A stretch of 64,000 bases of DNA from Siphonodentalium dalli. Lineage: Eukaryota > Mollusca > Scaphopoda > Gadilida > Siphonodentaliidae. Below the pieces are notes generated by a model. It did not search any database. It worked only from the letters and a program-made list of their open reading frames with translations, and was not told where the DNA came from. Where the stretch lies: positions 206,360,978 to 206,424,977 of the forward strand of contig CP136066.1 in the NCBI GenBank assembly GCA_032622095.1, written 5' to 3'. The translations under genes and the position numbers were made by a program. Shown here piece by piece: positions 4,046 to 60,273 of this stretch. How positions within the stretch are numbered: the first letter of the stretch is position 1; each line of letters starts with the position of its first letter.

Positions 4046-7000
4046 GTGAGTTGATACTTTATTTCATTTTAACCCTTTACCCAACAGAAGGGCCCTGTGC
4101 CAATGCATTCTCTTATATATGCGAGTCGACCATAGGTCGCCTCGCATATATAAGAGAATGCATTGGCTTAACACATTAAAAATTATAAAATTGTTAAAGA
4201 ATGTAAGAAAAAATGGTAAAAAGTGTTAAAACAAAGATTTTTTTTAGGCCAATGCATTCTCTTATATATGCGAGGCGACCTATGGTCGACTCGCATATAT
4301 AAGAGAATGCATTGGCACAGGGCATAACTGTAACTATCACAATGTGGTCAAGGAGCCGGTTTCAATGATGTCCATATTTGCATGGTGTTATTGAGACAGA
4401 CCGAAGATATTTTAGGCTGTTGAAGCTTTATTTGGCCGGTTTTGGTCGGTTTGTTGGGTAAAGGGTTAAAGATGCTCTATGAATCTCTACACTGCAGCTG
4501 ATTCATATAGTGCTCGGATTATTTTCAACTGAGCAGTCAATTCTTAATTCTCAGTAATTTCACAAACTAACTCTACAATCATGGACTATGTGTCAAATAA
4601 AATTTCTCCTAATCTAACCATTTGATTAGGCTGACTAACAACTGCATAATTATGTGATATTCATACTACATGTGCTTCTTCTACTGTGTTAGACACTTCT
4701 GATATATACCAGAAACTGATTGGTGCTTCAATAGAAGATCACAACATACCTGTTTCTACAGGGTTCTCTGAAGACAACGGAGGAAGCTACTTGAACCAAC
4801 CAACCAACCATGGCTATGCATGTAGAGATCATATTCCATCAGTACAAAACCATGGAAATTGTTTATGTTCTGACCTGTTCTGACAGGGAACTTTATCACA
4901 TTGAACAAACAATGCAGGGACCATATTTCTTTGTTAATACTTGTTCCTCAATAATCTACTTAATAGTAGGAGGTGGACCCAGCATGAGATTGCATGCTTT
5001 TTGTGACTTTTGTGAGTCGACATCGCAATAAACTTTGAATTATTTACCCAGTAAGAAGCCATGATTGTATCCAATATCACACACAAAGTCACTTAACTCG
5101 TGCAATTTTTTAGTTGGAACCTTCACCTACAGTTAAGTGTATTATTAATGAACATGCATTAACCCTTTCAGTGCCAGGGGCCGATCTCATCGGCCCTAAT
5201 TTACGGTCTGTAAAATCGGCCCTAAAAAAAGTTTTGTTTAAATGTTTTTTTTTTTTAGATTTTATTTTTTTTTTAATTCTTTTTGGGCATGCTATAGCGA
5301 ATTTAAAAACAAACTGGTTAAAACCTTAGGGGCATGTTATAACTCAAAACTATCACCAAGTATTCATAGTAATAATTTTGATGCCCATGAAAAACGTAAG
5401 ATTCCCTGGCACTAAACCTATAAGTCTGACACTGAAAGAGAGTAGAATATAAGAAAAAATTATTAAAATTGTAAAACATTGTAAAAAATAATAACAAATG
5501 ATGAAAATTTGTTAGGCCAATGCATTCTCTTATATATGCGAGGCGACCTATGGTCGACTCGCATATATAAGAGAATGCATTGGCACAGGGTATATGGGTT
5601 GATACAAAAATCGGACTTGGCACTGAAAGGGTTATATAAGAAATATATTAACTGCACTGTTTTTTCAATGTTATAAAGTTCCCTCTCACAACATCAAAAA
5701 GTTCTGAGGTTTTGTACTGGTAGAGTATAATCTATGAGTGTACATGTAACTATAGATGAGAGATTCATGGCATGATCTACTCGATCTCATATAACAAAAT
5801 ATTTTGTATGAAACTATTATTGAAGGCACGTTTCCATTGTAATATATTCTCAACAAAAAAAACCCAGGAGAAGCATCTGGTATTTCATTAAATTTTCAAT
5901 AAAAGCAGCTTAAAGGCACTCGCAGTGTGTAAATGTGCAAAAAATATATGTATGTAAAACATCACCATTAAACAGACCCAAGGCACTCACAGTGGGTAAA
6001 TGTGCAAAAAATATATGTATGTAAAACATCACCATTAAACAGACCCAAGGCACTCACAGTGGGCAAATGTGCAAAAAATATAAAAATCTGTAAAAACATC
6101 ACCACTAAAGGGACCCAGGGCACTCGCAGTGCATTAATGTGCAAACAATTTAAAAGTCTGTAAAAACATCAATAAAGGGACCCAAGGAACTCACAGTGGA
6201 TGAATGTGCAAAAATATAAAAGTCTATGAAAATTACATTTAAGGGACCCAAGACACTTGCAATGGGTAAATGTGAAAAAATTAAACACTTCACTCTACGA
6301 AATTTTACCAATAATACTTGTGACTAAGAGAGGGATATTTTTCCCTGAAAGAAGTCTTGTATGACCCATGGTTGTATATATTTTCTCAGTTGTGACTTGT
6401 ATTAACCCTTTCTATACTAAATGGATTCTCCCACCCAGTTATAAAAGTATTCATTGGAACGGTCTATTATTCATTTGGAGGGGTGTTGATGTAATTAAAA
6501 GCAGATGACAGTCAGAAAAACAGATAATACAAGAGCAGAATTATTCATATTCATTGGTGGGGAATGTTCAAACCTATGGTCGATTGTTGGCATCACTAAA
6601 CATTATGAATCCAAAAACTAAAATAAGATATGACGTAATATTTTGGTCAGAAGTTCTGAACTGTAACCTATAACTTAATTATAATATGACATAACTTTAA
6701 CTTTGATTCAGTCATCGCGGCACCATTGCGGAGTGTGTAACAAGGTTGTAATCATTTTTGGAATGCAAAGTTCTGTGAACTTGATGCTGACTGTCACATA
6801 CCGTTATAGATCAGTTGTTTGCAAGCACGAGTTTAGCATGCCTGTCATTTGCAGAATGAGGTCCCCATGAGGTGAATTTAGAGACTACCCCACATAGCGG
6901 GCTAGCATCACTAAATTTACCCTCTAGGAACCTCAATCTGCATGGCCTCATCTTTGGAATTTATTCTTTATAAAATTTCTATAGAAACTTCTTCACATAC

Positions 7001-10000
7001 ATTCTATTTCTTTTTATACCCCCCACTTTCGAAGAAAATGGGGGTATACTGGATTGACTGCGTCCATCCGTCCGTCACACTTTCTCCCTCCGTGTGTCCG
7101 TCCGTCCGTCCGACCTCATAACTCGAACAACTATGAACCGCCTCCTCTCCGCATGATGCTAATTGCGTTCCGACTTTCTTTTTTTAAGTTACGCCTTACT
7201 TTTCGACTTATTTTGACTTAGAAAATTCTGTCCGACTTAATAACTTTAACAAATATGAACCGATTTCAATCATTTTTGGTATACATGCTTCTCACAAACC
7301 CTCTCTACATGATGCGGCTCAGGGTTGGCTTGGACTGTTTTTCCTAACATTACACTTCATTTTCGTCTTATTTTGGGATTTATTTTTTTAGGATACTTTT
7401 TTCCCTGGAGTTGTGTGCCTTCTTAGCAGAAATTTGGTTTGACTGACGAAACACTCAACAAAAGCCATCTTAGATGTTAAGGTTGCGTTTCATTTTCTAC
7501 CCTTTTTTGGGTTTCTGCAATCATTCGAACAAATATGAACCAATTTGAATATTTTTTTTCTGTACAAGCTTCTTGCGACACCATATCAATATTATTAATC
7601 CAAATTTTTCTTTAAAGTTAAAAATCTTTTTGTTGGGTTTACGGATAATGTGGGTTGAATTTGCCACGGTGGGGGTATGCTAGCATACGAGTGCACACCT
7701 CTTGTTTAGTTTAGTTTCTCTATATCCAAAATTGGCAGATGACACATTGCATAATCAAGGTTCCCAATGGGTGTAAATCACAATATTCACCATTTGGGAA
7801 CTTCAATATGAGTGTATGCCTCCCATTGCAGAGGAGGCCATGCAAAATTCTTTGTATGCTGGTAGTAACAGACCTGGAAAAAAGCATCCGGTCACCGAAT
7901 GTTAGTTTGTGCTGTAAATTGGTAAGCATCCATTTTGCAATTGCTGTTACCTTGAAGAACCAGCCCAATTAATACACATGTTGATATGCAGGTCATTCAC
8001 TCAAGCAGGGAGCAATCAACTTTAAATAGACCACAGTGTTAGAGATAGCTGGTCAGCTGGGGATTTGGCTGGGAACATATGTCCAAAAACTCATCTCGGC
8101 CCAAAGGTTTATATTAGTTCTTGCAAAATGGATGCTTACACATTTCCAGCACAAACTAACATTCTGTTAACAGTCTTGAAGCACTATTGCTCTCTATTAA
8201 ATACTCATTCAAGCCTTGTAATAGTTAAGCTCATGTACTTTTTATGGCAGTTAATCATTTCCAATATCTTTTTATAATCCCTCAGAATTACCAAAATTTC
8301 CCTTCTAAAAATATGATTAAAGTCACCTTTTTGGTATTTTTATGTTTAGTATGGTAGACATATATATAGTGTCGACGTCTGGATTGACCACTCATCATTC
8401 ATCTGTCCATCGTCTGTCTGCCCGTTAATAGACACTTTACGCATAATGCGATAACTCAAACATTTTCTATCCGATTGGAACCAAATCGTATATGGGTTTC
8501 TCATCCCAAAATACAGATCGAGTTTGAATATGGGTTTGATCCGATTTATTTTAAAGGAGATATGGCCCTTTTTCGGAAGAAAAAAAAAATTTGGAAGGAC
8601 CCTGTGCCAATGCATTCTCTTATATATGCGAGTCGACCATAGGTCGCCTCGCATATATAAGAGAATGCATTGGCTTAACACATTAAAAATTATAAAATTG
8701 TTAAAGAATGTAAGAAAAAATGGTAAAAAGTGTTAAAAAAAAGTTTTTTTATGCCAATGCATTCTCTTATATATGCGAGGCGACCTATGGTCGACTCGCA
8801 TATATAAGAGAATGCATTGGCACAGGGCATAACTGTAACCATCACAATGTGGTCAATGAGCCGGTTCCAATGATATCCATATTTGTATGGTTTTATTGAG
8901 ACAGACCCAAGATAATTTAGGCTGTTGCAGCTTTATTTGGCCGTTTTTGGCCGGTTTGTTGGGTAAAGGGTTAAATCATTCACGACTTTACACAAGGAAA
9001 AACTTTATTTTAAAATCACACAAGACCTTAAGAAATTCTTAAACCTGAAGGGTGGGGGGGGGGGGGGGTACCTGAGTTGTAAATTCATTCCAAATGGGAA
9101 GGGTGCAGTTCAAAATTTGAAATTAGGTATCTCTGCCGAAAAGAAGTCCCTAGCAACAAGTTACAATTCTGTCCGAATGTTACCAATTTCATTACAAAAT
9201 CATGTTAGCCTCCTAAAAGATTTTTCCAATTTCACAAAGAGCCAAATATTAAATTAACTCAAATCCAATATTGAGAATCTGTCACGATCAGTCTGCCCAT
9301 TTTTGTGTTCAATCTTTTCATTAATATTCCTCATCATTTTGAAGCTCTGGTCTGCTCCAGTGATTAATATCGAACAAGTATAAAATTGCGTCATACAGAT
9401 TGACCCTAAAGTTGTGTGTCTGTGTACTAATCGTAGTGCAGGTCTCAAAATATGGTGCTGGACATTTGCAGAATGAGGAAGAATTTAGTGATGCTACCCG
9501 AGCTCCACATCAGGCTAGCATCACCACATTCATCTTTGGGGACCTCATTCTGCATTGTCTCATCCGATGTGGGAGACCTAGACTCAGATTTAGGTTCCCA
9601 GATGATGAAGATGTTGATGTGCAGCCATTGGGCACCTCGATTATACATTGTGTCTTCTGCCAATTTGGGGATGTAGAGAAAAAGTAATTTCTAAAGAAAC
9701 AAAATAATTTTTTATATTGATAATAAAGATACTTTCCATTGAAGATGAGGCCTAAGCAGAATGAGGTCCCCAGGGGGTGAATTTAGTATGCTGGCCCACT
9801 GTGCGGGGTATCAACACTAAATTCACCCTCTGGGGACCTCATTCTGCACATGTCGGCACCGTATTTTCAGGCCTGGCAGCTATACAATGAATCCATGTCT
9901 GTTGCCTTTAAAAAAAAAAAAACGGGACATACATTATTGGTCCGTCTGTCCGTTTGCTACATGTAGGTTCGTTTCTGGATGATAAATTTAGTAAAATTTA

Positions 10001-13000
10001 ACTGAATGGTATGAATTTTGGTACATGGGTTTACTAGCACAAATTGCAGGTAAAGTTTAATTTAACGCATTCCAATTGTCACCAGAGTTATGGCCCTTTT
10101 TGTTGGAATTTGCACTCAATATTCATTTCCGGATGATAACTTTAGAAATCTGAACTGAATGAAATGAAATATAGTATGTGAATTTACTAGCCCAAAATAC
10201 AGGTGAAGTTCAAATTTGGGTTCCGCCCACCAATTTTCACCAGAGTTATGGCCCTATGTTAAAATCACCACCTGCATATTTTGTCACGCTATAATAGCGA
10301 TGCTCTTGTTATATCCTCACTTTGAAGAAAAATTGTGGTATCCTGAATTGACTCGATGCTTCTGTCTGTCCATCTGTCCTGTCCGTCTGTCAGTTCGAGA
10401 AATATATCTCAGCCATGGGATGAAATTTGTAATATATGTTTGTCAAGTGGAGTATTTTCAATAGATGGAAGTTGTTCATTCATGATTTTCCTTTCTAGTT
10501 TATATGGAAATAATGGTATTTTGTCTGTCCGCGCAGTTATCTGAGCCATGATTTGTCAAAGGTCAATGAAATTTAACGTAGGTTAACCTTTCCATGACTG
10601 GAACTTCCTGAAATTTTGCGAAAACCCTGTGACTTTCAAAATGTTACTCAATGACTTATCCTACTTTGTTTATCTGAAATATTTTATATAGAATATCAAA
10701 ATCACCACGAATGAAGAATGAGCCATTCCAAAGCATACTTTTAGTACTGAATGGGAAAGTCCATTCAGAATCAAAGGTTTAACCCTTCCTATACTAAAAC
10801 TCATTGACGAATAAGTTCCCTTAGTAAATGTTCAGTAGGTCATTTGTTGAACTAAATACAGTAATGCCCTAACTAATCGACTCCTTTAACCACAGCAGAA
10901 TTATGGGTATCTTTTCAGGATTTAGTCGGAAATATGGCTTGTTGCCATTCATCGGAAAGCTCTCGGGGGAGAGCTCTCGGGGGAGAGCTTTCCGATGAAT
11001 GGCAACAAGCCATATTTCCGACTAAATCCTGAAAAGATACCCATAATTCTGCTTTGGTTAAAGGAGTCGATTACTTTGGGCATTACTGTAGCTGAACATT
11101 TCCCCACCACTGAATATGAATCCTACTGCTCTTATATTATCTGTTCATCTGTCTGAATGTCTGCTTATATATCCTGAACATCCCAACAAATTAATAGTGG
11201 ATCATTCTAATGTATACTTTTATAACTGGGTGGGAGAATCCATTTTGTATAATAAGGGTTAACTTCAGTCATTGAACCTGGCAACATTTCACACTAAGCC
11301 AATCATCTCACATTTCTGCTGATGTGGGACTTTAGTGATGTGTCTCTAACGCTCACAAGTCTTGAAATAGTGTGTCTGTCATTTGCATAATGAGGTCCCC
11401 AGAGGGTGAAATTAGTTAGGCTATCCCGCACAACTGGCTAGCCTCAGGAAACTCTGTGAGCCTCTGGGGACCTCAAACTGCTTAGACCGCATCTTTTGGG
11501 AAGTATCTATAGTCTCAAATTAACATTGTTTTAGTTACTTTTTCTCTTCTGCGAAGTTTCTATATCCCCTAATTTGCAGAAGATAAAATGCATAATTGAG
11601 GTGACTAATGGGTGAATATCACCAACTTCAACTGGGGAACTTCAATCTGATCCTAGGTCTCCCATAGCAGTTGAGGACTCAGCAAAATGAGGTCCCCAGA
11701 GGGTGAATTTGGTGACACTAGGATGTGGGATGTGGGATAGCACAACTAAATTCTCCCTCTGGGGGACCTCATTCTGCAAATGACAGACACAATATTTCAA
11801 CGCTCTCGCACTCAAGTTTCATATATTCCATTGGATAAATATAAAGCCTCAGATGTCCTTTATTTGTGCCGTATGCTTTGAACTGGTATCCGATATCAAC
11901 ACTGAGCCTCGAGGGATAAAATATAATAACTTGTTGAAAAGTGATCAGGGATCAGAGGTGTCAATAATCCATACTCCATTAGCGATGAAGAGGTCTGTGT
12001 CACTTTACACCAGTATTGACTCATATTACCATCGGAACCGACCAGGTATACTCTCATACTAGTATCATGTAGACGTAATGCATGGGTAAATTTTACTGCT
12101 GGAACTGACCAGGTACAGGTTTGGCCTCATAACACTCTATTTGAACCAACCAACTATGCCCTCATATCATGTAGACGTAATGCATGGGTAAATTTTACTA
12201 CCGTGACTGACCAGGTATGGGTATGCCCTCATATCATGTAGACGTAATGCTTGGGTAAATTTTACTGCGGTGACTGACCAGGTACGGGTATGCCCTCATA
12301 TCATGTAGACGTAATGCTTGGGTAAATTTTACTGCCGGAACTGATGTAATCATAAAGCAAATCTTACGGCCAGAACCAAGCCTGGAAATATGGCGTCTTA
12401 CATTCGCGGAATGAGGTCCTCTGAGGGTGAATTTAGTGACACTATCCAGCACAGTGGAAATATTGTTATGACAATTGCAGAATGAGGTCCTCAGAGGGTG
12501 AATCATGTGGGCTAGCATCACCAAATTCACCCTCTGGGGATCTTATTCTGCTTAGGACTCATCTTATGGGAAGTATCTGTAGTCTCAAATTAAAAAAGTT
12601 TAGTTACTTTTTCCCCTTCTGTTCAGTTTCTATATCCCCTAATTTGCAGAAGATACATTGTATCTGGGGAACCAGTCGACATAAATTTCGACTCAGTATA
12701 TCATATAAATTCATATTATAATTATCTGGGGAACCAGTCGACATAAATTTCGACTCAGTATATCATATAAATTCATATTATAATTATTACGGAGATGTTT
12801 ACGTCGACTGCTGGGGAACGAACTTCAATCACCCACTCATTTTCTTCCTTATTATGTCCCTCAACATTAAAGCAATGTTAACATGAAACACGGTGGGTAG
12901 TGGTATATTGTCTATTAACAATGGTGGGATTAAAGAAGTTTAGACACGGTATTTGAAGGTATGGATATAATTATGTAGAATGTTACATAAAACTAAAATA

Positions 13001-16000
13001 TTTATTAATTGTGAAACTGGCAAATGAGGATATAATTTGGCCAAAGTTCTTTTAATTTGGCCAAAAGAAATCAGAATTTGCCAAAATATTTTTCCACCCA
13101 GTGTGAACACTGGATGCTAGCCCGCTGTTCACTCTCTGGGGACCTTATTATGCAAATGTCAGACACACAACTTCAAAAACACAGGACCAAGGTTTTCCAA
13201 GTTTTTTCTAAATCCTGTTTTCATGGTTAACCCTTTCAGTGTCAGGTCCGATTTTTGTATCAACCGATATACCCTGTGCCAATACATTCTCTTATATATG
13301 CGAGTCGACCATAGGTCGCCTAGCATATATAAGAGAATGCATTGGCCTAACAATTTTTCATCATTTGTTATTATTTTTTACAATTTTAATAATTTTTTCT
13401 TATATTCTTTAACACTTATTTTGTAGGTTTAGTGCCAGGGAATCTTAAGTTTTTCATGGGCATCAAAATTATTACTATGAATACTTGGTGATAGTTTTGA
13501 GTTATAACATGCCCCTAAGGTTTTATCCAGTTTGTTTTTAAATTCGCTATAGCATGCTTAAGCATACCCAAAACAAATTCAACCCAAAACAATCTAAAAA
13601 TAAATTATTTTTTTATTTTTTTTATTTTTTTAGGGCCGATTTTACAGACCGTAAATTAGGTCCGATGAGATCAGCCCCTGGCACTGAAAGGGTTAAAGCT
13701 CAAGGATATCAGAACTTTGATGATATGTGACATTTTTCATTTGAAAAACATGTCCTCAGGGCCGGCTGCTCAGAAATCCTTTTATTTGCTAGGATTTCCT
13801 AATGAATGAAAGATTGCATTTCTTTTTGCAACGACTGTGATATCTTTGTTGAACCAATTATCAAAGGAAGAGCATTCGGTTCTTCAGCTGCAGAAACCTG
13901 TTCTGTTACAGTATCTGGGCTGGGGAACTATGTCATATCAATTTGCCCGAAAATGACAGCAAGATATAATGCACAGCGGGATAGCATCACCAAATTCTTC
14001 CTCTGGGAACCTCATTCTGCTTAGGCCTCAACTGCTATGGGAGACCTATGACCAGAAGTTCCCCAGTTGAAATTAGTGATGTTCACCAATTACTAGTAGT
14101 CATTAGTCACTACCTCATTCTGGTTAGGCCTCATCTTCTGGAAAATATCTATAGTCTCAAATTAACATTGTTTTTAGTTACTTTTCCACTTCTGTTCAGT
14201 TTCTACATCCCCTAATTTGCAGAAGATAAATTGCATTATCGAGGTGACTAATGTGTGAACATCACCAAGTTCAACTTGCAAACTTCAATCTGATCCTTGG
14301 TCTCCCATAGAAGTTGAGGCCTAAGCAGAATGAGGTTCCCAGTGGGTGAATTTGGTGATGCTATCTCACTGTGCGGGATAGCGTCACTAAATTCACTGTC
14401 TGGGGACCTCATTCTGCAAATGTCAGACACATATCCAGACTTGATTCAACAACTAATTTTGGATATAGATTCGCTTTTAATGAGATTTTGGCATTAAATT
14501 TCACAACCTTGCAAACAAAATGGTGACCAATGTCACTTGAACACATCTTTTGAACAGTCTTATTTATATGGGGACGGGATGACTATTATGCAAATCTGGA
14601 AATAAGCATCCGGTCAAGGTCAATGACCAGCCGAAAAGCCCAAAATAACCAGTGCTTTTTTGTTTGTACCTGTCGTTATCACTGGTGCTCATTTATTTAT
14701 TATGCACTGATCAAAATTACGGAATTTTTTGTTGATTTAATGTGTATAAGATAATTAATTGGTTACTTGTAAGTTGTTGTAACTACATGTTTTAAGCCTT
14801 TCATGACTGAAGCTTCTGAAATTTTATGAAAACCCTGTGCCAATGCATTCTCTTAAACATGCAAGTCTCCCACAGGGAGCCTCGCATATATAAGAGAATA
14901 CATTGGCCTAACAATATTTAACCTGACCTTGTAAGCCAGTGTATCCTCTTATATATGTGAGGCTACATGTACCTGGATAATGCACTGGCACAGGATCTTC
15001 AATGCTGCCCATCATGAAAACTACTTATTCTCAATATGGCTTAATAACAGTGTATTTCCTTATGTCTGTCGCTTGTGTATTAAAAAATGAAAACAAGCAA
15101 CATTCCATTGTCACTTTTGACAAAACGCCCAATAAACATAAACATACAGCATATATTTTGTGAAAATTTATGTGACAAAATTATTAATGACCGGCAGAAA
15201 CCAATACAGTAGTGCCCTAATTAATCGACTCCTTAACCACAGCAGAATTATGGGTAACTTTTCAGGATTTAGTGGGAAATATGGCTTGTTGCCATTCATC
15301 GGAAAGCTCTCGGAGAGATCTTTCCGATGAATGGCAACAAGCCATATTTCCCACTAAATCCTGAAAAGTTACCCATAATTCTGCTGTGGTTAAGTAGTCG
15401 ATCAATTAGGGCATTACGTAGGTGCCTGTCTTTTTGAGTTATTTCCAGGCTTGTGAGTATGGCAGGAATATTTCACTCATGTCAAACAATTGCTGTGATA
15501 GGGAGTTCAATGAATGCAACAGTTCACAGGTTCATGTTTTAATATTACCACAAGCCTATCTATTTGAAAAATGCACGAGAGCTACAAAGGCTGTCCTTAA
15601 CTCTTTCATGACGGGAGTTTTTTGAAATTTTACGAAAACCCTGTGCCAATGCATTCTCTTATATATGCGGGTCTCCTATAGGGAGCCTCGCATATATAAG
15701 AGAATATGTTGGCCTAACAATATTTACCTTGACCTTGTAAGCTATTGCATTCTCTTATATATGTGAGGCTCCCTATGGGAGACTCACATATACATGTATA
15801 AGAGAATGCCTGGCACAGGATATATACTACTGCACCAGCACAGCTCCCTTCGCGAAAAGGTTAACATTGTCCAATACAGCAACAGGGAAAGCCCCACCCC
15901 AGACATAACCAGAGAACACCTCAACGAGATCCTGTATGATTGTATTAAGGAGATAGTTATTGTCATTATAGACTCATTACATCTCGGCTACAAACATGAC

Positions 16001-19000
16001 ATACAACACTTGTCGCATTGGACTGCATGCAATCATGTCGGCCACAGCAGGGACCAGCCGAGAGGGCGACGTGGGCGACTTCTTCGTCCTAGCGCCGTCC
16101 GCTTCGCCTTATTTTTGCAGTCGGGCGAAGTTCAAGTCGCCCTGAAAATTCCAAAGTTGACTGACGAAAATCGGCAAAATTCCCCAAATAATTTATGATA
16201 ATTTACAACTGACAACAGTGATTGCACACAATACTCCACTATCATGGTGTTGTAAAACAATTAACACCTGTATTGCTCCAATCCGGAAGCATGTTGGCAA
16301 CAGAGTCTGATTACTGGCAGCTGTGAAAACATCGTCGGGCCTCAAGTGTTAATCTGGTTGTTGTGATTTTTAGATTACCGTCATTACCACACCTTACTAT
16401 GAAGATTACAACTCACAGCTCTCACAATGTGTCAGTTCATCACTCCCTCTATGGAGTTTGGTTAAAGAAATTTTAAAACAAATTCATTTGTGAAGCATAT
16501 TAAATTTTCAAACGGGATTACTAATAGAGCGCAGTGAAAGTGTTCATGATTTCGTTTCGTTTCGGTTTGATAAATATTGTTGGCATTTTTAAAAACCCGA
16601 AAAATATGAAATAAAATCTTGTCATTCTCCCACAATTACGATATAAAATGCTGCTATCCTCTCACAATTATGTTTGGGTATTATTAATAGTCATTAGGGT
16701 CATGAAGTGAACATAAAGACTCCATATTTCAACCATTGTTTCATAAGTTTAATTGACATATTACATCTCTCCTATTTTCGTTCTATAGCGACTCCTGTCG
16801 TAGTAGGCCTACTGTTCAATTTAAGTTTTGTAGACTCACTTCGCCCTATAGAACGGCCACTTCGCCTTATTTTTATAGTAGGGCGAAGTCATTTCGCCCT
16901 GAAAATATGGTCTAGGCTGGTCCCTGGGCCACAGTATATCCAACCTTTCATACCAAATCATTGATATACTGCCCGGGGACTCAGTTAATGACTCAAACAC
17001 CAAAGTCTGCGAAATTAGGGAATCATACTTTACATTTTAAACAGAATACTGTTTCCTTATACAGTAATGCCCTAAATAAACGACTCCTTAACTACAGCAG
17101 AATTATGGTTAATTTTTCAGGATTTACTGAGAGCTTTCCGATGAATGGCATCAAGCCATATTTCCGACTAAATCCTGAAAAATTACCCATAATTCTGCTG
17201 TGGTTAAGGAGTCGATTATTTAGGGCATTACTGTAGCTTGAATAGGAAGGACTTTTTAGTCACCTCTCTTCTTAACCCTTTGAGTGCCAGGCCGATTTTT
17301 GTATCAACCCATATACCCTGTGCCAATGCATTCTCTTATATATGCGAGTCGACCATAGGTCGCCTCGCATATATAAGAGAATGCATTGGCCTAACATTTT
17401 TTTTGTTTTTTTTGTTTTTTTTTACAATTTTTTACAATTTTAATATATTTTATTATATTCTTTAACAGACTTATTGTGTAGGTTTAGGGCCGATGAGATC
17501 GGCCCCTGGCACTCAAAGGGTTAACACTAGCTGTCTGTTCCAAGAAGATAATATTTTCAGAAGGGCCTCCCTGCTGCACGCTAATTTATATTTTGATTAG
17601 AATTATATTTGCATCATATGTTTCCCAAGAGCCCGCTAAAAACATAAACTAACAAATACTTCGTTTCAGTTGGGTTCAGAGTAGAATTACGGAAATAAAT
17701 AAAAACAATGTAACAACCGCTAATGTTGACTGTAGAGAGATATAGCGTGAACTCTATTCTTGCCAATAACTTCCCCAGGACATGGAAAATTGCAATCATA
17801 TATGGTATACATGTAGGTCAGGATTCTATTTGTCACTATTATTATTGGCCTGTTTACTTGTTGTGTTGTTATTATTATTATTATTGTTTATTGATACAGG
17901 CAAGCCTTGAAATAGTGTGTCTGACATTAGCAGAATGAGGTCCCCAGAGGGGGAATTTAGTGATGGTACCACGCAGTCTTGGCTCACTGTTATAGCACCA
18001 CTCAAGCCTGAGTTTAGTGGCCTGTCATTTGCAGAATGATGTCCCCAGAAGGTGAATTTAGTGATGCTAGCCCGCTATGCGGGATATCATCACTAAATTC
18101 ATCCTCTGGGGACCTCATTCTGCAAATGACAGGCACACTAAACTCAGACTTGGGTGTACACGAACGACACTGTTTGTCAGTCCGGGCATATAACTCAGTC
18201 TTGGGTTATTGTATCTGACTGACATTTTGCTTGGATGTTCACCATCATGACTGCTTTCAAAAGAGGGGCAAATGACATTCCCATTTTTCGATCTAGACTT
18301 ATCTTTCTTTATTTTCTTTTGCAGGAACATCGATTTTAGCCGTCTACCTCTGCCTTGTCTTACTCGCCACCCCAGCGTTGTTTATACAGCTCAAACTTGG
18401 GGCTCACGCACAAGTGGGAATCGTTGCGCTCTTCGCAAAATATTTTCCTGTCTGGAAAGGTAAGATATTTCTTAGACATTGAAGTGGTACTGTATAATAA
18501 ATCTGGCCATTTTCATTATAATTACCATGTTGTTTGTGATATTCATGAGTGTATTTTGCACTAATTCATGGCTCCAATTCATTCATTTGTTGCATATATT
18601 CTGTTGAGTATAAAAGCAGATGGTCCCACATTCCCCTTTAAACGGCCAACAAACAATAGTTTACTGTGTTTTCTATTATCATTTAAAACTGGGTTATATC
18701 ACTTGAAAAACACTCAGCCCTTGGAAATGGCTTAGGCAATAAGCAAACCTACCAGTTTGTGAAAGCAGACACAAAATCAGTTTGCCTAGGCTATGCTATT
18801 GCCTAGATAAGCATTGCCTAGGTAAATTATGTTTATTATACCCCCCGCAACGAAGTTAGGGGGGGTATACTGGAGTCAGCTTGTCGGTCCGTCCGTCGTC
18901 CGTCCGTCGTCCGTCCGTCCGTGGACACAAATTTGTCCGGAGTTTTTCTCAGTCGTTTTTTGATCAATTTCCGTGAAACTTGGCACAGACATCAACCACC

Positions 19001-37147: not shown

Positions 37148-37186
<39 letters not shown>

Positions 37187-46100: not shown

Positions 46101-49100
46101 TTTCCACTTTATCTGGCAGAAGGGTCCAAATTGCGTCTGCGAGAACAGGCTTCTGTGGTTCTAGAAGAATCAGCGATCTGTTGAACAGTGATGTGGGATA
46201 ACTTGTAAGTTCATACTTGAAGAGATCTGCCCTCTCTTCTTCGTTTGGCGCAGCAATGACAAGTCGCTGGAAAAGGAGTTGTTGATCAACCTGAACTACA
46301 TCCCCTTCGATATTGATAGCAGATTTGTAAGCAAGAGTTTTTGCTTGGAATGCACGCTTGAATCCATGAGTCAAGTTAAATATCCATGCATAACAATTTC
46401 CCCTCGTATCTTCCAAGCTGATAATTGACGCTCTTTATTGATTGTTAATATATTTTATTAATCCCCCTTTAAGTCATCAGTTGCCAAACCTATACCATGA
46501 CATTCCTCTGGTCATTTTAAACCTGTTTAACAATTTTCAACCCATGTGTCCAACCATTTTAGGTATGCCTGTAATTAATTATTTAACTAAATTAATCAAC
46601 CATGAATGCCCCTTTAAATCATCTGACGCAAAGGGCACCTATCTCATAACATTCCCCGTGTCAATTTACTAATGTCTACCAATTTTCAGCTCCCATGGTC
46701 AAACTATTTGTATAGAATAAGATATACGGTACGGTGCCCATGCGTCGTAATTGCGGTGAATCGGCTTTCCATACACCGATCGCCACGTGTGCTAATCGAT
46801 TGAAAATCTCGAATCAACAGTAACTAAAACTGTCATTTGAAACATCGTTTTTATTGGTGTTTTTATCACACATACATGGTAATATATATGATTATCTTTA
46901 ATAGTAGTCGATCTGAATGGAATAAACCTATATCGTGATATTTAATACGATCTTTATTTTTATGAGTAAAACACTTGGAGTAAAAACGAAAAATATTTGA
47001 AACGGGACGTCTTACACTCTATTTATTTAAAAAAAAAAAAAAAAAAGGCTTTTTGGGTTATTGCAGATGGGGACGATTGTGTGTACTTTACACTGCCCAT
47101 TATTGGGAACAAGTGAATTGTAATGTTTATCGAGTTGCTGGCTTGTCAACTTGCCAATTAGCTTTGCACAGCGTGTTGTGTTTACATTCAAACGTGTCAA
47201 GGTCGTTTCTCACCTCAAGCGGTGGGGAACCGATTGGTGCACAATTTTCATTAGCAATTCTGAGAAATTACGAAATTTTTAGTCATCAAAAATCACAAGT
47301 TTGCAAAGTGGGACTTTTTGGGACTTTTTATATGTTGTTTGATGACCATTTCTATACATCATGGCGGTGACAGAAATTCTGTTGCAATTAGTGTGAGGTT
47401 GAATCACTATATTGACTGGACTACATCTGCGATATAAAATCGCAGCGTCTATGGTGGCACTTACAGATGTGAAGAGAGATAATTTCAGCGCTGTTAATTC
47501 AGATGATTGCAGGTGCAGACAGGTGTGAGTGCAATCGCACCCATCTGTTGGAAAGGACTGAAAAGCCAATTAAGTAATTAACATTAGGCGATAAGTAATA
47601 CCATAAATAGCATGCAATTGTCACCACGTGTGTGCAAAGTAATCTCCACGATTTTATAATATACAGGCACTCAGTGCAGAACTATGGGAATATTAACTGA
47701 TTATTGTTAATTGCCTGCCATCATAACTGATTAAGTTGCTTGATTTGAGCAGTCTAAGCTTCACATGATTAGTGATGGCAGAAACTTTGTATGTCATCTT
47801 ACACAGTCTGGATTAATTTGCATCTGAACACTTTCAGTGCCAAGTCCGATTTTTTTATCAACCCATATTTCCTTGATATCATTTTTCAAATTTATAGATT
47901 AAAATAATGTGATACATTGACGGAAAGAGCTCTAAGATTATTAGAATCAAATTTGAAAAATGATCAAGGAAATATGGGTTGATACAAAAATCGGACTTGG
48001 CCCTGAAAGGGTTAATTTCCCTATACAATTTGAAATTCTCTTGGCTGCAGATAAATAGGATAATTATGGTAACCACTTAGGGGATCATAAATCGAACGCT
48101 GGCAACTGATGACGTTTTGTGACATTTCGATCTGTTCTAAAATATGAGTAATTTAGTAATGCTAGCCCACTATGCGGGATGGCGTCACTAAATTCACCCT
48201 CTGGGACCTCATTCTGCAAATGACAGACACGCTATTTGCAGGCTTGCTTCTTTCTTATCCAAAAAAAGCCATGTATCGATTGGAGTGACACATTGAAATC
48301 CCTCAACTGAGATCAAGTGACCAATGGACGATTTTCGCCCATGTCGGACTTACGCCAACCTCATCTAGCCCAGACAGCAATGATCGTATCTTCAACATGA
48401 TAGAATTATGTGTTGCTTTGAAGTTGGGCTAACCTGACATACCAGTAGTTTTATAATATGTTATTTAAATATGTTTTTTTCCAGTTCTAAGACTTGACAA
48501 CACTTTTATAACCCTTTTATGATGGGAGATAAGCTGGTGCAGCATTAAAGACCCTGTGCCAGTGCATTCCCTTATATATGAACCTCCTATAGGAAGCCTC
48601 ACATACATGTACTAGTATATAGGAGAATACATTGGCTTATAAGGTCAAGGTAATTATTGTTAGACTGATGTATTCTCTCATATATGCAAGGCTCAATTTG
48701 GGACACTCGCATTGGCACATGGTTTTCGCAATATTTCAGGAAGCTCCAATCATGGAAGGGTTAATGCTGCACCAGAGCAGCTCCCGTCTTTAAAGGCCCA
48801 CTTAATTTTCGAGTTGCCGATTATTTTTTTTATATTGACTTGATATACGGTTTTAATAACAATCTATGCCATAAAATATGATTAAAATACTATAATTCAT
48901 CACTATTTGAAACTTCTGCGTCTCAGAAGATGCCGACAGAGAAATAGAAAAGTGCTGAAATCATAGAATGACTTCCCCCCCTCTGGATCCCAGAATGCAA
49001 CATAATTCAAATTTTTTCAATGGAGGGGGAAGAACTCTATCTTTAATATATAGAGTTATTCCACCTGCATTGAAAATAATACTGATTTTTACTGCAATCT

Positions 49101-52100
49101 AGATGACAAAACGCGTTGGCAACTCAACAAAAACAATATGTCCACAGTTTATCACACCGGATAAGTTGATAATACAATGTTTTGGAGCTTCCTCTTTCAA
49201 CTGGTATATAATATGGCAGATATTTTATATAATGTAATCTGGGGGTTCGAAAATTAAGTGGGTCTTTAACCCTTTACCCAACAAACCGGCCAAAACCGGC
49301 CAAATAAAGCTTCAACAGCCTAAAATATCTTCGTTCTGTCTCAATAGAACCATACACATATGGATATCATTGGAACCGGCTCCTTGACCACATTGTGATA
49401 GTTACAGTTATGCCCTGTGCCAATGCATTCTCTTATATATGCGAGTCGACCATAGGTCGCCTCGCATATATAAGAGAATACATTGGCCTAAAAAAAATCT
49501 TTTTTTAACACTTTTTACCATTTTTTCTTACATTCTTTAACAATTTTATAATTTTTAATGTGTTAAGCCAATGCATTCTCTTATATATGCGAGGCGACCT
49601 ATGGTCGACTCGCATATATAAGAGAATGCATTGGCACAGGGCCCTTCTGTCGGGTAAAGGGTTAAAGGGTTAAATATAAGAACAGCAGAATGATGTTGTG
49701 TATCTTCTCATCAACAGGAGTTTCTGCATGGCTTCCAGGCTGTTATGACGGCCCTGCCAGTGTGGTCAGCTGTCGCACCAACCATGGGCAAGTTTACAGG
49801 AGAGGGCCAGTGCACAAGAAACACGTAAGTCTGTCCTACCAGCGGCCAGATGCCAGTAGCATGTGTATTTTACACATGGTCATATGCGATATACAGTGAT
49901 GCCCTAAGTAATCGAATCCTTAACCACAGCAGAATTATGGGTAACTTTTCAGGATTTAGTCGGAAATCGGCGACAGCTTTCCGATGAATGGCAACAAGCC
50001 ATATTTCCGACTAAATCCTGAAAAGTTACCCATAATCCTGCTGTAGTTAAGCCATGTGTTTTATTTTTTCCAAAATTTGTTACAAAAACATGGCCATCAA
50101 CAGCTGTTTTGGACTCATCTTGGATTTTACTCTTTGCATGACTAAATTCATTGGCACCCCATACAGACCACATCCCTTATCCGAATGTCACAATATCTTC
50201 AGGGGGGACCTCTAGATGGGAGCCACAAATTATTCCCCATATTTGATAAAAAACATGGCAATCTTGGATTTCACATTTGAATCCATCGGCACATTCTGCT
50301 GCTCCACCTTATAAAGTGTTGATATATGCAAGCCTTTAAATAGTGTGTCTGTCATTTGCAGAATGAAGACCCCAGAGGGTGAATTTAGTGATGCTACCCT
50401 GCATAGCTGGCTAGCATCACCAAATTCACCCCCTGTGGACCTCATTCTGCTTACATCTCAGCAGAATGAGGTTCCCAGAGGGTGAATTTGGTGATGCTAG
50501 CCCGCTATGCGGGGTAGCATCACTAAATTCACCCTCTGGGGACCTCATTCTGCAAATGACAGACACACTATTTCAAGGCTTGGATATATGGCCTATCATC
50601 TTAAATAACAATAACATTTTAAGAAATTATCTTGGTTTCTTAATATAATTACATAGTTTAGCCATTTGTAGGGCAAATACTCATTGGTGAGTACAGTAAT
50701 GCCCTAAATAATCGACTCCTTAACCACAGCAGAATTATGAGTAACTTTTCAGGATTTAGTCGGAAATATGGGTTGTTGCCATTCACTGGAATGCTCTCGC
50801 TGAGAGATTTCCGATGAATTTTCTTCAAGCCATATTTCCGACTAAATCCTGAAAAGTTACTCATAATTCTGCTGTGGTTAAGGAGTCGATTATTTAGGGC
50901 ATTACTGCAGTTCCCTTATCAGATAATAAGTTCAACAAATGATACATTTCCCACCAATGATTATGAGATCATCTGCACTTGTATTATCATTTTATCTGGC
51001 TGTCTTCTCATATATCCTTCACATCCCTCCAAATCAATAATGGACCATTCTAATGTATACTTTTATAACTGAATGGGAGAATCCATTTAGTATAAAAAGG
51101 GTTAAAGGCATCATGCTGGCACAAACTTATAAAATATAAATGGTTAGTGATTCAACATGATGCCGTTAAACTGTGATTATCCACCTCCTACCCCTCTCTA
51201 CTATACATATAAAGCATCCTCTACTATACATATCCACCTCCTACCCCTCTCTACTATACATATCCACCTCCTACCCCTCTCTACTATACATATAAAGCAT
51301 CCTCTACTATACATATAAAGCATCCTCTACTATACATATCCACCTCCTACCCCTCTCTACTATACATATCCACCTCCTACCCCTCTCTACTATACATATC
51401 CACCTCCTACCCCTCTCTACTATACATATAAAGCATCCTCTACTATACATATAAAGCATCCTCTACTATACATATTCACCTCCTACCCCTCTCTACTATA
51501 CATATCCACCTCCTACCCCTCTCTACTATACATATCCACCTCCTACCCCTCTCTACTATACATATCCACCTCCTACCCCTCTCTACTATACATATCCACC
51601 TCCTACCCCTCTCTACTATACATATAAAGCATCCTCTACTATACATGTCCACCTCCTACCCCTCTCTACTATACATATCCACCTCCTACCCCTCTCTACT
51701 ATACATATCCACCTCCTACCCCTCTCTACTATACATATAAACTCCTACCCCTCTCTACCCCTCTCTACTATACATATAAAGCATCCTCTACTATACATAT
51801 AAAGCTCATCAGATAAACCACGCCTCTATCTCTCTACTATACATATAACCTCCTACCCCTCTCTACTATACATATAAACTCCTACCCCTCTCTACTATAC
51901 ATATAAAGCTACCCCTCTCTACTATACATATAAAGCACCTCCTACCCCTCTCTACTATACATATAAACTCCTACCCCTCTCTACTATACATATAAAGCAC
52001 CTCCTACCCCTCTCTACTATACATATAAAGCTACCCCTCTCTACTATACATATAAAGCTACCCCTCTCTACTATACATATAAAGCTACCCCTCTCTACTA

Positions 52101-55100
52101 TACATATAAAGCTACCCCTCTCTACTATACATATAAAGCACCTCCTACCCCTCTCTACTATACATATAAAGCTACCCCTGTCTACTATACATATAAAGCC
52201 CATCAGATAAGCCACGCATCCACCTCCTACCCCTCTCTACTATACATATAAACTCCTACCCCTCTCTACTATACATATAAAGCTACCCCTCTCTACTATA
52301 CATATAAAGCACCTCCTACTCCTCTCTACTATACATATAAAGCTACCCCTCTCTACTATACATATAAAGCACCTCCTACCCCTCTCTACTATACATATAA
52401 ACTCCTACCCCTCTCTACTATACATATAAACTCCTACCCCTCTCTACTATACATATAAAGCACCTCCTACCCCTCTCTACTATACATATAAAGCTACCCC
52501 TCTCTACTATACATATAAAGCACCTCCTACCCCTCTCTACTATACATATAAAGCTACCCCTGTCTACTATACATATAAAGCCCATCAGATAAGCCACGCA
52601 TCCACCTCCTACCCCTCTCTACTATACATATAAAGCCCATCAGATAAGCCACTACCCCTCTCTACTATACATATAAAGCCCATCAGATAAGCCACTACCC
52701 CTCTCTACTAGACAGATAAAGCCCATCAGATAAGCCAAGCCTCTATCTGTCTACAATACAGATAAAGCATCCTCTACTATACATATAAAGCCCATCAGAT
52801 AAGCCACGCCTCTATCTGTCTACAATACAGATAAAGCATCCTCTACTATACATATAAAGCCCATCAGATAAGCCACGCCTCTATCTGTCTACAATACAGA
52901 TAAAGCATCCTCTACTATACATATAAAGCCCATCAGATAAGCCACGCCTCTATCTGTCTACAATACAGATAAAGCATCCTCTACTATACATATAAAGCCC
53001 ATCAGATAAGCCACGCCTCTATCTGTCTACAATACAGATAAAGCATCCTCTACTATACATATAAAGCCCATCAGATAAGCCACGCCTCTATCTGTCTACA
53101 ATACAGATAAAGCATCCTCTACTATACATATAAAGCCCATCAGATAAACCACGCATCCACCTCCTACCCCTCTCTACTATACATATAAAGCCCATCAGAT
53201 AGGCCACGCCTCTATCTGTCTACAAGACAGATAAAGCATCCTCTACTAGACAGATAAACTTAATAATATGCGAGGAAGAAAGGTTACAAGAACTTGGACC
53301 AGTTAACCTCCAGCAGTTAGTGAGTGATGTCACTGGGTCGTAACAAAGTTTTGGAGCATCATTAGAACGGACCATGCTGGTTTCCATTGTTAGCGACAGC
53401 GTCCTTAGAAACGTCAACATACACAACTTATTTTCGTGCAATCGGTGGCGACACCTTTCTAAAAGATCAAGCGATGCGCCCCAAAACGCACTCAAATAGA
53501 ATGTTTCAATGTTCAGTTGGTGAAGTCTATAAATTGATTAAGCAATTGGCAGTTTCGTTACTATAAACTATACCATATTCTTCCGTGAGCTGGTGCATTT
53601 GAGCTGGTGCATTTGCACTGTCGATCTTGGTGCTGGTGCTACCGTTAAAGTTCAGATTTTCAATTCATTAATAAGTTTCAAGCACAATCATCCAAATTCA
53701 CATGACTGATATACTCGAACATTTCAGTTTTAGATTTGACAGTAACGCGAATCATTTTGATTTTATTACAAATTACACCATGCTATGATATTTTTCCGGC
53801 ATAATTTAGAAATTATAAAGCGGACTATTTCCCGGTGCAGTCGCATGAATACAAAACTGATTCATAATTTATTAGTCTCTACCATACAGATAAAGTCGCT
53901 AAGTAGGTCATCTATATCTCAGTGTATTAATTTTGAATTTGAAATATTGTTAAATATTGGGAACTTTATATTTGATGTTGCAGTTGCTTGTTGCCATGAC
54001 AAAATTCCAACACTCACATTCACTTCTGCCTTGAAGGGGTACTGTATACTTAATCTGCCCATTTGTTTGTTTATTGGGAATTTGGGATTCAACCCAGGAG
54101 GATTTGGGAGGGGCGGGACCTCTCCCCTACAACCAACTTTGAAATGATATTGGGGTTTATGATATGGTGAGACATACACATAACGATGAAGGATGAAAAA
54201 TGATCTAGACATTGATTTTTTTCTTTTTTGGTTACTTTTTTTCCCTATCGGTTGGTGCTGTTGTTGTTGTTGCAGATGATGATGCTGCCGCTAACGCTTC
54301 TTTTGTTTCTTTGTTCGATTTTTCTAAAATTTCTTTGGCCCATTGTTTTACATTTTCGCTGTAGTTCTTTATTTCTGCGATGCTGGAAGCGGCAGAAATG
54401 CTGGTGGTGTTACCGGTGTTGTTGTTGTCGCTGGTGGAGATGGAGGACACCGGGATGTGATGGTATTCATGTGTCCAAGGTGTCGATGTGTCCATCTCCA
54501 CCCCAAAGTCAGCCGCTGACCTCGGTGACGATAGCAGGGATAACCGGGGTGACATCGGCGTCCCTGCTCCTGGTGTTGATATCGTCGGGGGAGGCCAAGT
54601 GGGGGGGAGCTGGGCATCTTTCAGCTCGCCCCTGTTTCCACTTGGCCCTCCTGTCTGCATCTCTTCTTTTGCGGAGGGGGTCTTCTTACTTCTCCGCCTC
54701 CTCTTCCTCGCTCCTCCGTCCCCAGGTAGCTGGTGGTCTCCAGCTACCGGGTTACGGCCGGCAGAGGGTCCTGATAAGGACCGTGTCGGTGTAACCCGGT
54801 AAGTCAAAAACAAATCAACCTGGCTGCCTGTAAATTCCAGGTCAGGCAGTGATCCAGGTTGAATGAGCTCAGCACGAGCCTGACTTCAGCGGGGATTATA
54901 GATGAATCCATTGTCCAGCTGAAGTCAGTAATCCGATCGCCAGGTGGTCGATGTCCGGGAACGCTCAGCCACCGGCGGTCGGGTAACTTTTCAGGATTTA
55001 TTCGGAAATATGGCTTGTTGCCATACATCAGAAAGCTCTCGGGGAGAGCTTTCCGATGAATGGCAACAAGCCATATTTCCGATTAAATCCTGAAAAGTTA

Positions 55101-58100
55101 CCCATAATTCTGTTGTGGTTAAGGAGTCAATTACTTAGGGCATTACTGTACATTAGAAAATGTAGTGGATGTAATTATAGCACAATATTCAATAAACCAA
55201 CCTGGTATCTAATAATACTCAGGCCTGAGAATATATGGTGCCGGAAATTTGCAGAATGAGGTCCACAGAGGGTAAATTTAGTGATGCTACCCCACACAGC
55301 GGGCTAGCATCACCAAATTCATCCTATGGGGACCTCATTCTGCATGGCCTCATCTGATATGGGAGACCTAGACACAGAATTAGTTCCCAGATGGTGAATA
55401 TTGTGATGTGCCCCCATTTGGCACCTCAATTATGCAATGTGTTGTCTGCCAATTTGGGGATATAGAGAAACCAAACTAAAAATTTAAAAGAATCTTTGTG
55501 AAAAGTTTCTATAAAAAGTTCTAAGAAACTAAAAAAAACTGTTTAATTTGATAATAAAGATACTTTCCAGAGAAGATGAGGTCTAAGCAGAATGAGGTCC
55601 CCAGAGGTTTAATTTAGAGGTGCTGTGTAGGGTCACTGAATTCACCCTCTGGGGACCTCATTCTGCTAATATATGTACCATACTCTCAGGCATGTTGATA
55701 CTGGATCCTCCAATTATCTGATATCATGTGATATGAAGATTGTGTAACATGTAATCATAGCTTGTTAATCATAAGTGGGAAGAGATTCAAGATTACGTAA
55801 ATACATCATTGAAAGATGATTTTATAAATGACAGTCTCTTGTGAGTAATTATTGAATTGGCCACTTTGATATGGGATCGATATTCACCCTTTCATAACTG
55901 GAGATGCGCTGGTTCTGCATTAAAGATCCTGTGCCAGTCCATTCTTTATATATTTTCATTAAATTAAGTCTTGTTTCTGATGAAAGTTTCAATTCTTAGT
56001 CGTTTCTGAACACATATGTTTATTAAACACGATCATGGCAGATTTACATCCTGTAGACCATAATTGTATCATCATTTTATTGCGTTGATGGGTGTTTATA
56101 TGCTCATAATTATTATATTGAAATAGTTATGAACTTGGACATCAATGAAATGAACTTGAAACGGAAAACCACAACCGCGAAGGCAACTGACTTCAGAAAA
56201 ATCAACACTTGGCTTTGGGTTACCATAATTTATACGTCGCTTGTCTTTACAATGGTTTTGAATGTTGTATATTGGTTGATGTAATATAAATATAGGCCTA
56301 CATGTATAGGCCTAATTGTCTATTCAGTGCCTAACCTTTCATAATGTGTAACTCATCAACATAACGGGTGTGCAAAAAATAGTACTGCACGAATTTAAAT
56401 ACGAGTAAGGTATATATATTTTCCTACTTCAGGTAGAATCTGTTGGACAGAAATGTCCCCATTTAGATTAATTAAATCTCAACCACTTTATAACTGCTTC
56501 AAGTAATTAGATCTCAACTTCTTCAAGTAATTGTCCCCAAAAAACATTGTGGGGCTATAAAAATGAACAGTGTTCACCAGTCTACATGCAGGGGCCCGCG
56601 CTGGACCAAAATTTGCTTTTGCCAAATAATAATATTTTTTGCCAAATGCTATCCCTGATAGTATCATTTTCTGCAACCTTAAGTCTCATATTTCGACACT
56701 GGTGGTTTGAACAACTTTTGATATCGATAGAAAAAGCTGTTAGTTAATAATTAATTATACTCGCATCTCTTCTGTGGTGTATCATAAAATAATAAGCCAA
56801 ACACTGAACAAAACAATGGTAGAAGGGTTCCTTCATCAGAAGGGCTCATCACAGGAGGATTAGCTATGTAAACACTACCACCACACTAAATACTAGTAAT
56901 CCCTCCAACCATCAGTACTAATGCAATGATATTAACTGCATCTTAATAGAGGTGTTAACTTTTCCTAAACCTTATAAAACACCACTAATATAATTATGTT
57001 GTAAGAGTTTCCTGAAATGAATGATATTGATTGACCAATATTTTTCAAATTTCTTGAGGAATTCAAAAGTGACTTGCCAAAACTTTTGCCAAATGAAAAT
57101 ATTTTTTGCCAAATGTGAATTATTTTTGCAATTGGCAAGTGGCAGTGCGAACCCTGTCTACATGTCCGTCCATCTATCTGAAATTTTTGTTGTCCAGATG
57201 ATAACTTGAATAGTATTTGACAGAATTTGATGAAACTTGACATGTGGCCTTCATATGAGAAATTCAAAGATAAAGTTTCAATTTTGATTTGGTCCGACCA
57301 TTTCTGGCAGAGTTATTCCCCTTATCGACTTAGAATTTGCTGATTATTTTGTTTTCCGGATGATAACTCAAGTTATCATTTTCTGATAGCTTTCAAATTT
57401 AGTATGTGGTTTAACCACTTTTTATACTAAATGAATTCTCACAGTCAGTTATAAAAGTATACATTGGAATGGTCTATTATTCATCTAGAGGGATCAGGAC
57501 AAATAAGCAGATGACAGATAATGCAAGTGCAGAAGGAGTCCTAATTATTGGAGGGAAATGTTCAGATAATAAGGTCTACAATCAACACTCAGGTGTGATT
57601 AGGCTCCCATAAACAGATGTTAATAGTAACTATGGTGTTATCTAAGACAGTGTCAATGGACAACTTGGTTCCATCAATGTTGGCAGTAAATTAGGATGAA
57701 TATTTCGCTGATTATGTCCGATTGTACATACGATAGTTATGTGTTGTTATATGTGTTCCTGGAATCTAGGATAAACTTCCTTTCCTCAGTGATTGTAACT
57801 GCTAGGGTTAATTGTATAGATAAGCACAATACATAGAAGACAGATTATATAGTGTAGAAACACACACGCATAATTAACAAGATCACATTCTTAAGTGGTT
57901 ATGACTGGTAGCAACCCATGTATAAGTTAGGGTGGATAAAGGCAGTATCATTCTATAAGACAGTATAGTAATACACGTCATATCCAAGTGTATCATGTAT
58001 CTCGGACCTTATTTAGAGGCATGATACACCAGAGGTTGGAATAACTACCCGTGCTCTGAAGCGGGGGTCTCACTTATCCGACAACCTTGCTACTATACCA

Positions 58101-58727: not shown

Positions 58728-58775
58728 GTATTTAGTATTTATTCTCCTGGTGATGGACTCACATCGTGCATACCT

Positions 58776-59811: not shown

Positions 59812-60273
59812 ATGTGACCCGCCATATCAAATCCAGTCGTAAGTCGGGATTTTTTTACCCTGTGCCAATGCATTCTCTTATATATGCGAGTCGACCATAG
59901 GTCGCCTCGCATATATAAGAGAATGCATTGGGCTAACAATTTTTTATCATTTTTTTAAAATAAATGTTTCTTACAATTTTTAGGACATCAAATAAAAAAC
60001 ATCCATTACCCTGCAGGAAGCCCGACACATATATAGAAGCATATAGATGAGTGTCGTCTGCTCATGTTTGTCTGGGGCTCTGTATGGGTGAAATTATAAA
60101 ATTGTTAAAGAATACAAGAAAAAATTATTAAAATTGTAAAAAATTGTTAGGCCAATGCATTCTCTTATATATGCAAGGCGACCTATGGTTGACTCGCATA
60201 TATAAGAGACTGCATTGGCACAGGGTAAAAAAAATCCCGACTTACGACTGGATTTGATATGGTGGGTCACATA
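59812..60273. mobile_element. Core-palindrome MITE with different termini (TGTGACCCGCCATATC)
   Basis: TGTGACCCGCCATATCAAAT at the left is mirrored by ATTTGATATGGTGGGTCACA at the right. Between them are the same CCCTGTGCCAATGCATTCTC palindromes as in the TTAA elements. The ends are not TTAA. In the downstream intron. Confidence 0.8.

Follow-up and report, generated by a model that had tools for sequence, protein, structure and literature searches.

A near-perfect hairpin as the shared interior of miniature inverted-repeat transposable elements with four types of ends in a scaphopod genome

Miniature inverted-repeat transposable elements (MITEs) that differ in their ends and share their interior have been described in corals. 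In Acropora millepora and A. palmata, the elements termed CMITEs fall into six families of terminal inverted repeats (TIRs) around one shared 75-bp interior, which is reported to be more conserved than the TIRs; about 1600 copies were estimated in A. millepora, the TIRs mostly start with CCCTTT, and a CC[C/T]T start is given as the piggyBac-type TIR motif (Wang et al. 2010, PMC2872659). The authors proposed a role of the interior in transposition and left its origin open; why a conserved interior should be common to MITE families that differ in their ends was not answered for CMITEs in 2010. Here we describe a 64,000-nucleotide stretch (hereafter the window) of the scaphopod Siphonodentalium dalli (assembly GCA_032622095.1, contig CP136066.1, positions 206,360,978 to 206,424,977), in which a hairpin module lies behind four different types of MITE ends. 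The locus is a second, compact case and carries its own controls, namely an element whose end and hairpin disagree, one end with two alternative interiors, and hairpin arms that can be scored; given the whole genome, these make exchange, nesting and selection distinguishable.

Judged by its description, the CMITE system is a close precedent and the same kind of thing. As there, TTAA-flanked MITEs of piggyBac type with different TIRs hold one interior that is more conserved than the ends, and one CMITE element has been reported with the interior of another family (PMC2872659). The differences are the hairpin nature of the interior, the carrier outside the TTAA group and the single end with two interiors. 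CMITEs are about 100 bp long, and palindromes, hairpins and secondary structure go unmentioned in the available text of that article; all of them are described with piggyBac-type ends, whereas one carrier here has TGTGACCC ends with TA, and the comparison of interiors, including the two found here behind one end, is by description and not by CMITE interior sequence (PMC2872659).

Partial likenesses exist in other systems. The pearl-family MITEs of bivalves are modular, with internal repeats, and DTC84 has a conserved palindrome near the repeat junction (PMC5139131). In the window, one element has its spacer as a tandem array (37356-37662); the pearl-family repeats, however, are described as internal tandem repeats of related elements and not as one hairpin behind different TTAA ends (PMC5139131). 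Satellite-MITE networks are a further parallel (PMC12628747). Galileo of Drosophila is comparable in that its structural diversity has been attributed to aborted repair, template switching and ectopic recombination, but it belongs to the P superfamily, has 7-8-bp target duplications and, in the available text, is not described as having a core shared by different families (PMC4168063). A MITE-like repeat in the haemoglobin genes of Lucina pectinata measures 210 bp, with 30-bp inverted ends and a 77-bp palindromic centre, and a second Lucina repeat contains a 68-bp self-complementary stretch with a short segment common to the first; no target duplication is reported there, and the likeness is one of description, not of sequence (PMC4732748). 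Among the matches listed in a search of the open-licence literature, no paper contained the present sequences or had a title about a hairpin common to TTAA and other MITEs.

The 20-mer CCCTGTGCCAATGCATTCTC occurs 23 times in the window at up to 3 mismatches and was absent from 100 dinucleotide shuffles. It is the start of a 75-nt module, composed of CCCTGT and a 69-nt near-perfect hairpin with 33-bp arms, a 3-nt loop and one conserved mismatch. A 79-nt stretch containing the hairpin folds with -36.1 kcal/mol as single-stranded DNA (z = -15.9 against shuffles). The module sits directly inside four end types, as an earlier note on this DNA had claimed for its palindromic core, and the outer boundary of the core is CCCTGTGCC in all of them. 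Seventeen elements or fragments carry it: classes 1 and 2 contribute four each and class 4 a single one, while class 3 ends are found on five longer and three broken ones. The discordant element 37305-37806 and the fragments at 20833, 25581 and 55886 are additions to the carriers known from that note, as is a class 3 end at 10583 that stops inside CCCTGTG. Eight hairpins have the identical 75-mer, six of the eight in class 2 and two of the four in class 1. Within the arms lies an outward-reading TATATAAG, a possible TATA box. The elements are as follows.

4069-4469, + strand: class 2 MITE with TTAACCCTTTACCCAAC ends; hairpins 4093-4167 and 4248-4322
8600-8974, + strand: class 2 MITE, right end only, left end lost; hairpins 8600-8674 and 8753-8827
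42536-42936, + strand: class 2 MITE; hairpins 42560-42634 and 42715-42789
49266-49665, - strand: class 2 MITE, reversed; hairpins 49413-49487 and 49567-49641
5159-5635, - strand: class 1 MITE (TTAACCCTTTCAGTGCC; end A right, end B left); hairpin 5516-5590
13227-13696, + strand: class 1 MITE; hairpin 13272-13346
17272-17524, + strand: class 1 MITE, short form; hairpin 17316-17390
40916-41375, - strand: class 1 MITE; hairpin 41256-41330, centre inverted
14792-15030, + strand: class 3 MITE (TTAACCCTTTCATGACTG-type ends); hairpin 14833-14907 and a decayed second copy; right end degenerate
15597-15864, + strand: class 3 MITE; hairpins 15639-15713 and about 15742-15819
21074-21344, + strand: class 3 MITE; hairpin 21116-21190 and a rearranged second copy
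48508-48764, - strand: class 3 MITE; decayed hairpins 48552-48636 and about 48667-48713
37305-37806, - strand: discordant element, class 3 left-type end with class 1/2-type hairpin 37689-37763; tandem AT-rich spacer 37356-37662; decayed, cut-off second hairpin 37305-37354
59812-60272, + strand: class 4 element ending in TGTGACCCGCCATATC and flanked by TA on either side; hairpins 59858-59932 and 60151-60225
20833-20885, + strand: class 3 left-end fragment, internal deletion in the end; core broken after about 15 nt
25581-25646, + strand: class 3 right-end fragment, its end recognisable over the inner 18 bp only; core broken about 47 nt in
55886-55954, + strand: class 3 right-end fragment; core broken about 27 nt in
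10583-10631, + strand: class 3 left end stopping inside CCCTGTG; outside the 17 core carriers
38269-38483, no strand assigned: core-less relative, class 1 end A flanking a different palindromic interior on both sides
47825-48015, no strand assigned: second core-less relative, class 1 end A with the alternative interior of 38269-38483

Comparison of core and ends revealed separate histories. The consensus hairpins of classes 1 and 2 show no difference at 75 positions (95% upper bound about 3.9%); the class 4 copies show 1/75 and 3/75 differences and class 3 shows 5/75. Nine end sequences were compared in 36 pairs against simple shuffles, with the first 10 bp excluded. Past the shared start TTAACCCTTT, no similarity could be detected between the ends of classes 1 and 2, for which 228 (1A-2L), 700 (1A-2R), 817 (1B-2L) and 78 (1B-2R) of 1000 shuffles were as good. 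The only clear match among the 36 pairs, equalled by none of 1000 shuffles, is that of the class 3 left end with the end of 37305-37806; despite this end, the hairpin of 37305-37806 is 2/75 from class 1/2 and 5/75 from class 3. Weaker pairs were 1A-4L, through a T-rich run (8 per 1000), 1A-1B (12) and 2L-2R (14), the latter two each representing the two ends of one element type. Ends were also sought with profiles; as these profiles were built from the elements described here, matches of their own members arise by construction, and the independent ones are the core-less ends, 10583 and 55886.

End A gives the same picture from the other side. The hairpin lies behind it in four elements and a different palindromic interior in two (38269 and 47825). 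Whether or not the core adjoins them, copies of end A have 93-100% identity to the 5159 copy; the similarity of the two kinds of element stops at CCCATAT, and the interior switches at the same base. The element 38269-38483, put forward earlier as a possible empty site, is thus occupied by a different palindromic interior, as is 47825-48015. Core and ends do not have one common phylogeny. From the discordance of 37305-37806 and the two interiors behind end A it follows that interiors have been exchanged, whatever the mechanism. The contrary outcome named in the earlier note, a single family in which core and termini share one phylogeny, is not what these two observations show, though three of the four end types have the TTAACCCTTT start in common.

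The classes differ in their construction. Whole class 2 elements (three copies) measure 400-401 bp and consist of a 24-bp left end, a hairpin, a 70-80-bp AT-rich spacer, an inverted hairpin and a 147-bp right end; the TTAACCCTTTACCCAAC-ended copy placed earlier at 8599 has the right end, its left end being lost. Class 1 elements (253-477 bp) have end A of 44-45 bp, a single hairpin, a spacer and a different end B, which resembles end A over about the first 17 bp. Where the earlier note gives the core as often present twice around an AT-rich spacer, class 1 has a single hairpin and two different ends. In the class 4 element (461 bp) both hairpins lie between 47-bp inverted ends with TGTGACCC, and TA, the duplication looked for in a Tc1/mariner-type MITE, stands on either side of TGTGACCC...GGGTCACA (one copy only). 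The two-ended class 3 elements (four copies, 239-271 bp) have different left and right ends; three of them have one good and one decayed or rearranged hairpin, and 48508 has two decayed ones. An exact CATGACTG is seen only in the first of the four (14792), the other class 3 ends being variants. Where intact, their inner stem reads TCTCCC/GGGAGC rather than TCGACC/GGTCGC, while the arms and CCCTGTGCC are common to the other classes; the four class 3 copies listed earlier (14792, 15597, 21074, 48508) hence share the core in part.

The ends of classes 1-3 begin with CCCTTT or variants, the shared start TTAACCCTTT being piggyBac-type. TTAA, a putative target duplication, is present at both ends in 8 of 13 elements of these classes (4069, 42536, 49266, 13227, 17272, 40916, 15597 and 21074), and the remaining five have a mutated or missing end. 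Five of six one-sided truncations fall within the core (10583, 20833, 25581, 55886, 37305) and one outside it (8600). These truncations were not counted as evidence, because hairpins, roughly estimated, make up about half of a class 3 element.

Change is slower in the hairpin than in the flanks attached to it. In class 2, 2/150 hairpin columns are variable compared to 16/147 flank columns (Fisher p = 0.0005); the counts are 2/75 and 5/44 in class 1 (three copies, p = 0.10) and 11/75 and 11/41 in class 3 (three copies, p = 0.14). Pooled, the odds ratio is 0.26 (p = 1e-4), with p = 2e-4 when class 3 is left out and p = 0.03 when class 2 is left out. The class 1 copy whose centre is inverted was excluded on both sides of the comparison; including it gives a pooled p of 0.0026 when it is counted raw and 0.0003 when it is counted as one event plus one substitution. 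The class 2 comparison was not selected by core quality, since BLAST with one class 2 right end alone recovered the four class 2 elements and nothing else. For class 3, three of six left-end elements were used, 48508 (hairpin deletion), 37305-37806 (other hairpin type) and 10583 (cut off) being dropped. The class 2 spacer is intermediate (5/78 variable columns, p = 0.048 against the hairpin), and in class 1 the hairpin is not slower than end B (5/134 and 3/70 columns, three copies). CpG decay was rejected as the cause in class 2, where only 1 of the 16 variable flank columns touches a CpG. Constraint on the hairpin and its copying between elements (homogenisation) would both fit the slower change.

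Changes within the hairpin were scored in 16 of 22 copies; omitted were 4322 and 8827, which are identical, and four class 3 copies that are decayed or rearranged. The T/C mismatch is retained in all 11 distinct hairpin rows. Apart from the inverted centre, the hairpins of classes 1, 2 and 4 have changed on one side only. Arm-to-arm correction as a homogeniser was rejected on these two grounds. Two adjacent pairs have changed on both sides and set class 3 apart; this compensated-pair count does not exceed that of shuffles (equalled or surpassed in 462 of 500), whereas the covariation score does (0 of 500). The inverted centre itself, in the class 1 hairpin 41256-41330, is read as recombination within the palindrome.

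The spacers, compared using dinucleotide shuffles, are also shared in part. The right spacer of class 4 shows a relation to that of class 2 and to each of the four of class 1 (0 of 300 shuffles as good in each case), and class 1 and class 2 spacers match one another more weakly (0, 38, 2 and 2 of 300). Related AT-rich pieces are present in classes 1, 2 and 4, and in 37305-37806 AT-rich spacer forms the tandem array. Class 3 spacers showed no clear relation to the other spacers (best 6 of 300). About 110 bp of the class 4 spacer (59981-60090) have no other match in the window.

On balance, the hairpin is probably a shared interior module of several non-autonomous TTAA (piggyBac-type) MITE families and of one TA-flanked element, having been swapped through recombination at the palindrome before amplification with each end. 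Recombination or template switching at the palindrome, in ectopic conversion or break repair, would carry the module from family to family, and it would need no transposition of its own. It would then be amplified with each end type by the transposase recognising that end, with piggyBac-like enzymes presumably mobilising classes 1-3. Recombination would have done the moving, and homogenisation or constraint would keep the hairpin uniform. The earlier suggestion that the core moves between MITEs is right in the main as a modular reading, one interior being found behind different ends; the nested transposition offered as one of its routes is unsupported in the window. A transposon with CCCTGTGCC inverted ends which nested into four MITE families, the composites being amplified afterwards, appears unlikely. 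It could account for the CCCTGTGCC boundary in every end type, for the long inverted arms of the full CCCTGTGCC...GGCACAGGG unit (79-80 nt in class 2, 109 nt in class 4) and for the TA on either side of the class 4 unit. However, no direct repeat surrounds the unit either in class 2, where GGG precedes it and CATAAC follows, or in class 3, where it lies between AAAA and TCTTTAA, and the TA/TA of class 4 is uninformative, as it lies within the 47-bp inverted repeat and is expected there anyway. Class 1 holds only half a unit, the core-less end A elements offer another interior and no empty site, and a recognised MITE end adjoins the core in all 17 copies (in this one 64-kb window; solo copies elsewhere are possible).

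A selected role had also been raised, in which the hairpin acts as a transposition enhancer or as a site for a transposase or host factor, so that MITEs capturing it amplify more. The lower variability of the hairpins compared to their flanks is compatible with it, as is the outward-reading TATATAAG, and a transposition function was proposed for the conserved CMITE interior of corals (PMC2872659). Yet copying between elements yields the same pattern, core-less TTAA MITEs exist (38269, 47825 and the group 6402/10779/51050), the second hairpins of class 3 are decayed, and TATATAAG is common, with 45 occurrences on both strands of the window; we regard such a role as improbable. Even less probable is one old family whose ends diverged past recognition around a retained core, with no exchange. 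The TTAACCCTTT start and TTAA flanks common to classes 1-3 are in its favour, but it has to reconcile a class 1/2 core with 0/75 differences with ends lacking detectable similarity, and it meets the discordant 37305-37806, the different ends of class 4 and the two interiors of end A.

Several points weigh against exchange by recombination at the palindrome. A discrete mobile unit would explain the constant outer boundary CCCTGTGCC more simply, and this boundary is the best remaining argument for one. The discordance of class 3 end and hairpin and the non-TTAA carrier are one element each, and the spacer of 37305-37806 matches all others weakly (7 to 171 of 300 shuffles as good). Taken singly, classes 1 and 3 show no significant slowing of the hairpin, and p is 0.04 for class 2 when its two hairpins count as one. 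Retention of the T/C mismatch shows that, for homogenisation, only copying of whole hairpins fits. Donors are possible elsewhere in the genome, outside the 64-kb window. Finally, piggyBac is reported to bypass DNA synthesis in transposition (a title in the reference list of PMC2872659), and gap repair is weakened as an occasion for switching because of this. A bolder extension, which we consider doubtful, is that the hairpin lives as a parasite of parasites. Defined by its structure and devoid of a transposase of its own, the module would enter MITEs of different superfamilies (TTAA and TA targeting), stay uniform through copying between families and profit from amplification by several transposases at once.

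Some arrangements around the elements were observed in addition. At 48724-48796 a class 3 element ends at TTAA, and next to it stands the outer part of a second class 3 right end, as though the element had been inserted into that end's own TTAA. The class 3 left flank (ACATCTGAACCGTTTAC.AAAATAACTAATTTAACCC) is present twice, at about 20805-20843 before a fragment and at 21046-21083 before a whole element, which suggests local duplication after insertion. A core-less TTAACCCTT MITE group with TTAACCCTTTCTATACTAAATGGATTCTCCC-type ends is represented at 10779-11262, 6402-6450 and 51050-51105; the copy at 10779-11262 has a long central palindrome of its own and unlike subterminal sequences.

In wider searches, exact matches to a 21-base core pattern were absent from collections of viral and genome contigs, and one class 2 element gave no match to phages. 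No tRNA was found in the window by ARAGORN and no Rfam match at gathering thresholds. The window has 334 stop-to-stop frames of at least 55 amino acids (aa); a Pfam scan of 24 open reading frame stretches, two loci being scanned twice, gave no transposase and nothing above the curated cutoff. Matches below it were to DUF771, DUF4345, Endo_dU, zf-BED, zf-C2H2_12 and Ima1_N. The weak BED zinc-finger match (19.0 bits, cutoff 20.6) is in a 110-aa frame at 27326-27655; BED zinc fingers occur in transposases. Two overlapping open frames of 195 and 180 aa on the minus strand at 45336-46434, with no Pfam match above cutoff, may represent a gene that is decayed or split by introns. Repeats are abundant in the window, with large tandem arrays at 33916-36026 (48-bp units, about 43 copies) and 51182-53154 (units of about 23-69 bp) and a run of 38 G at 37148-37185.

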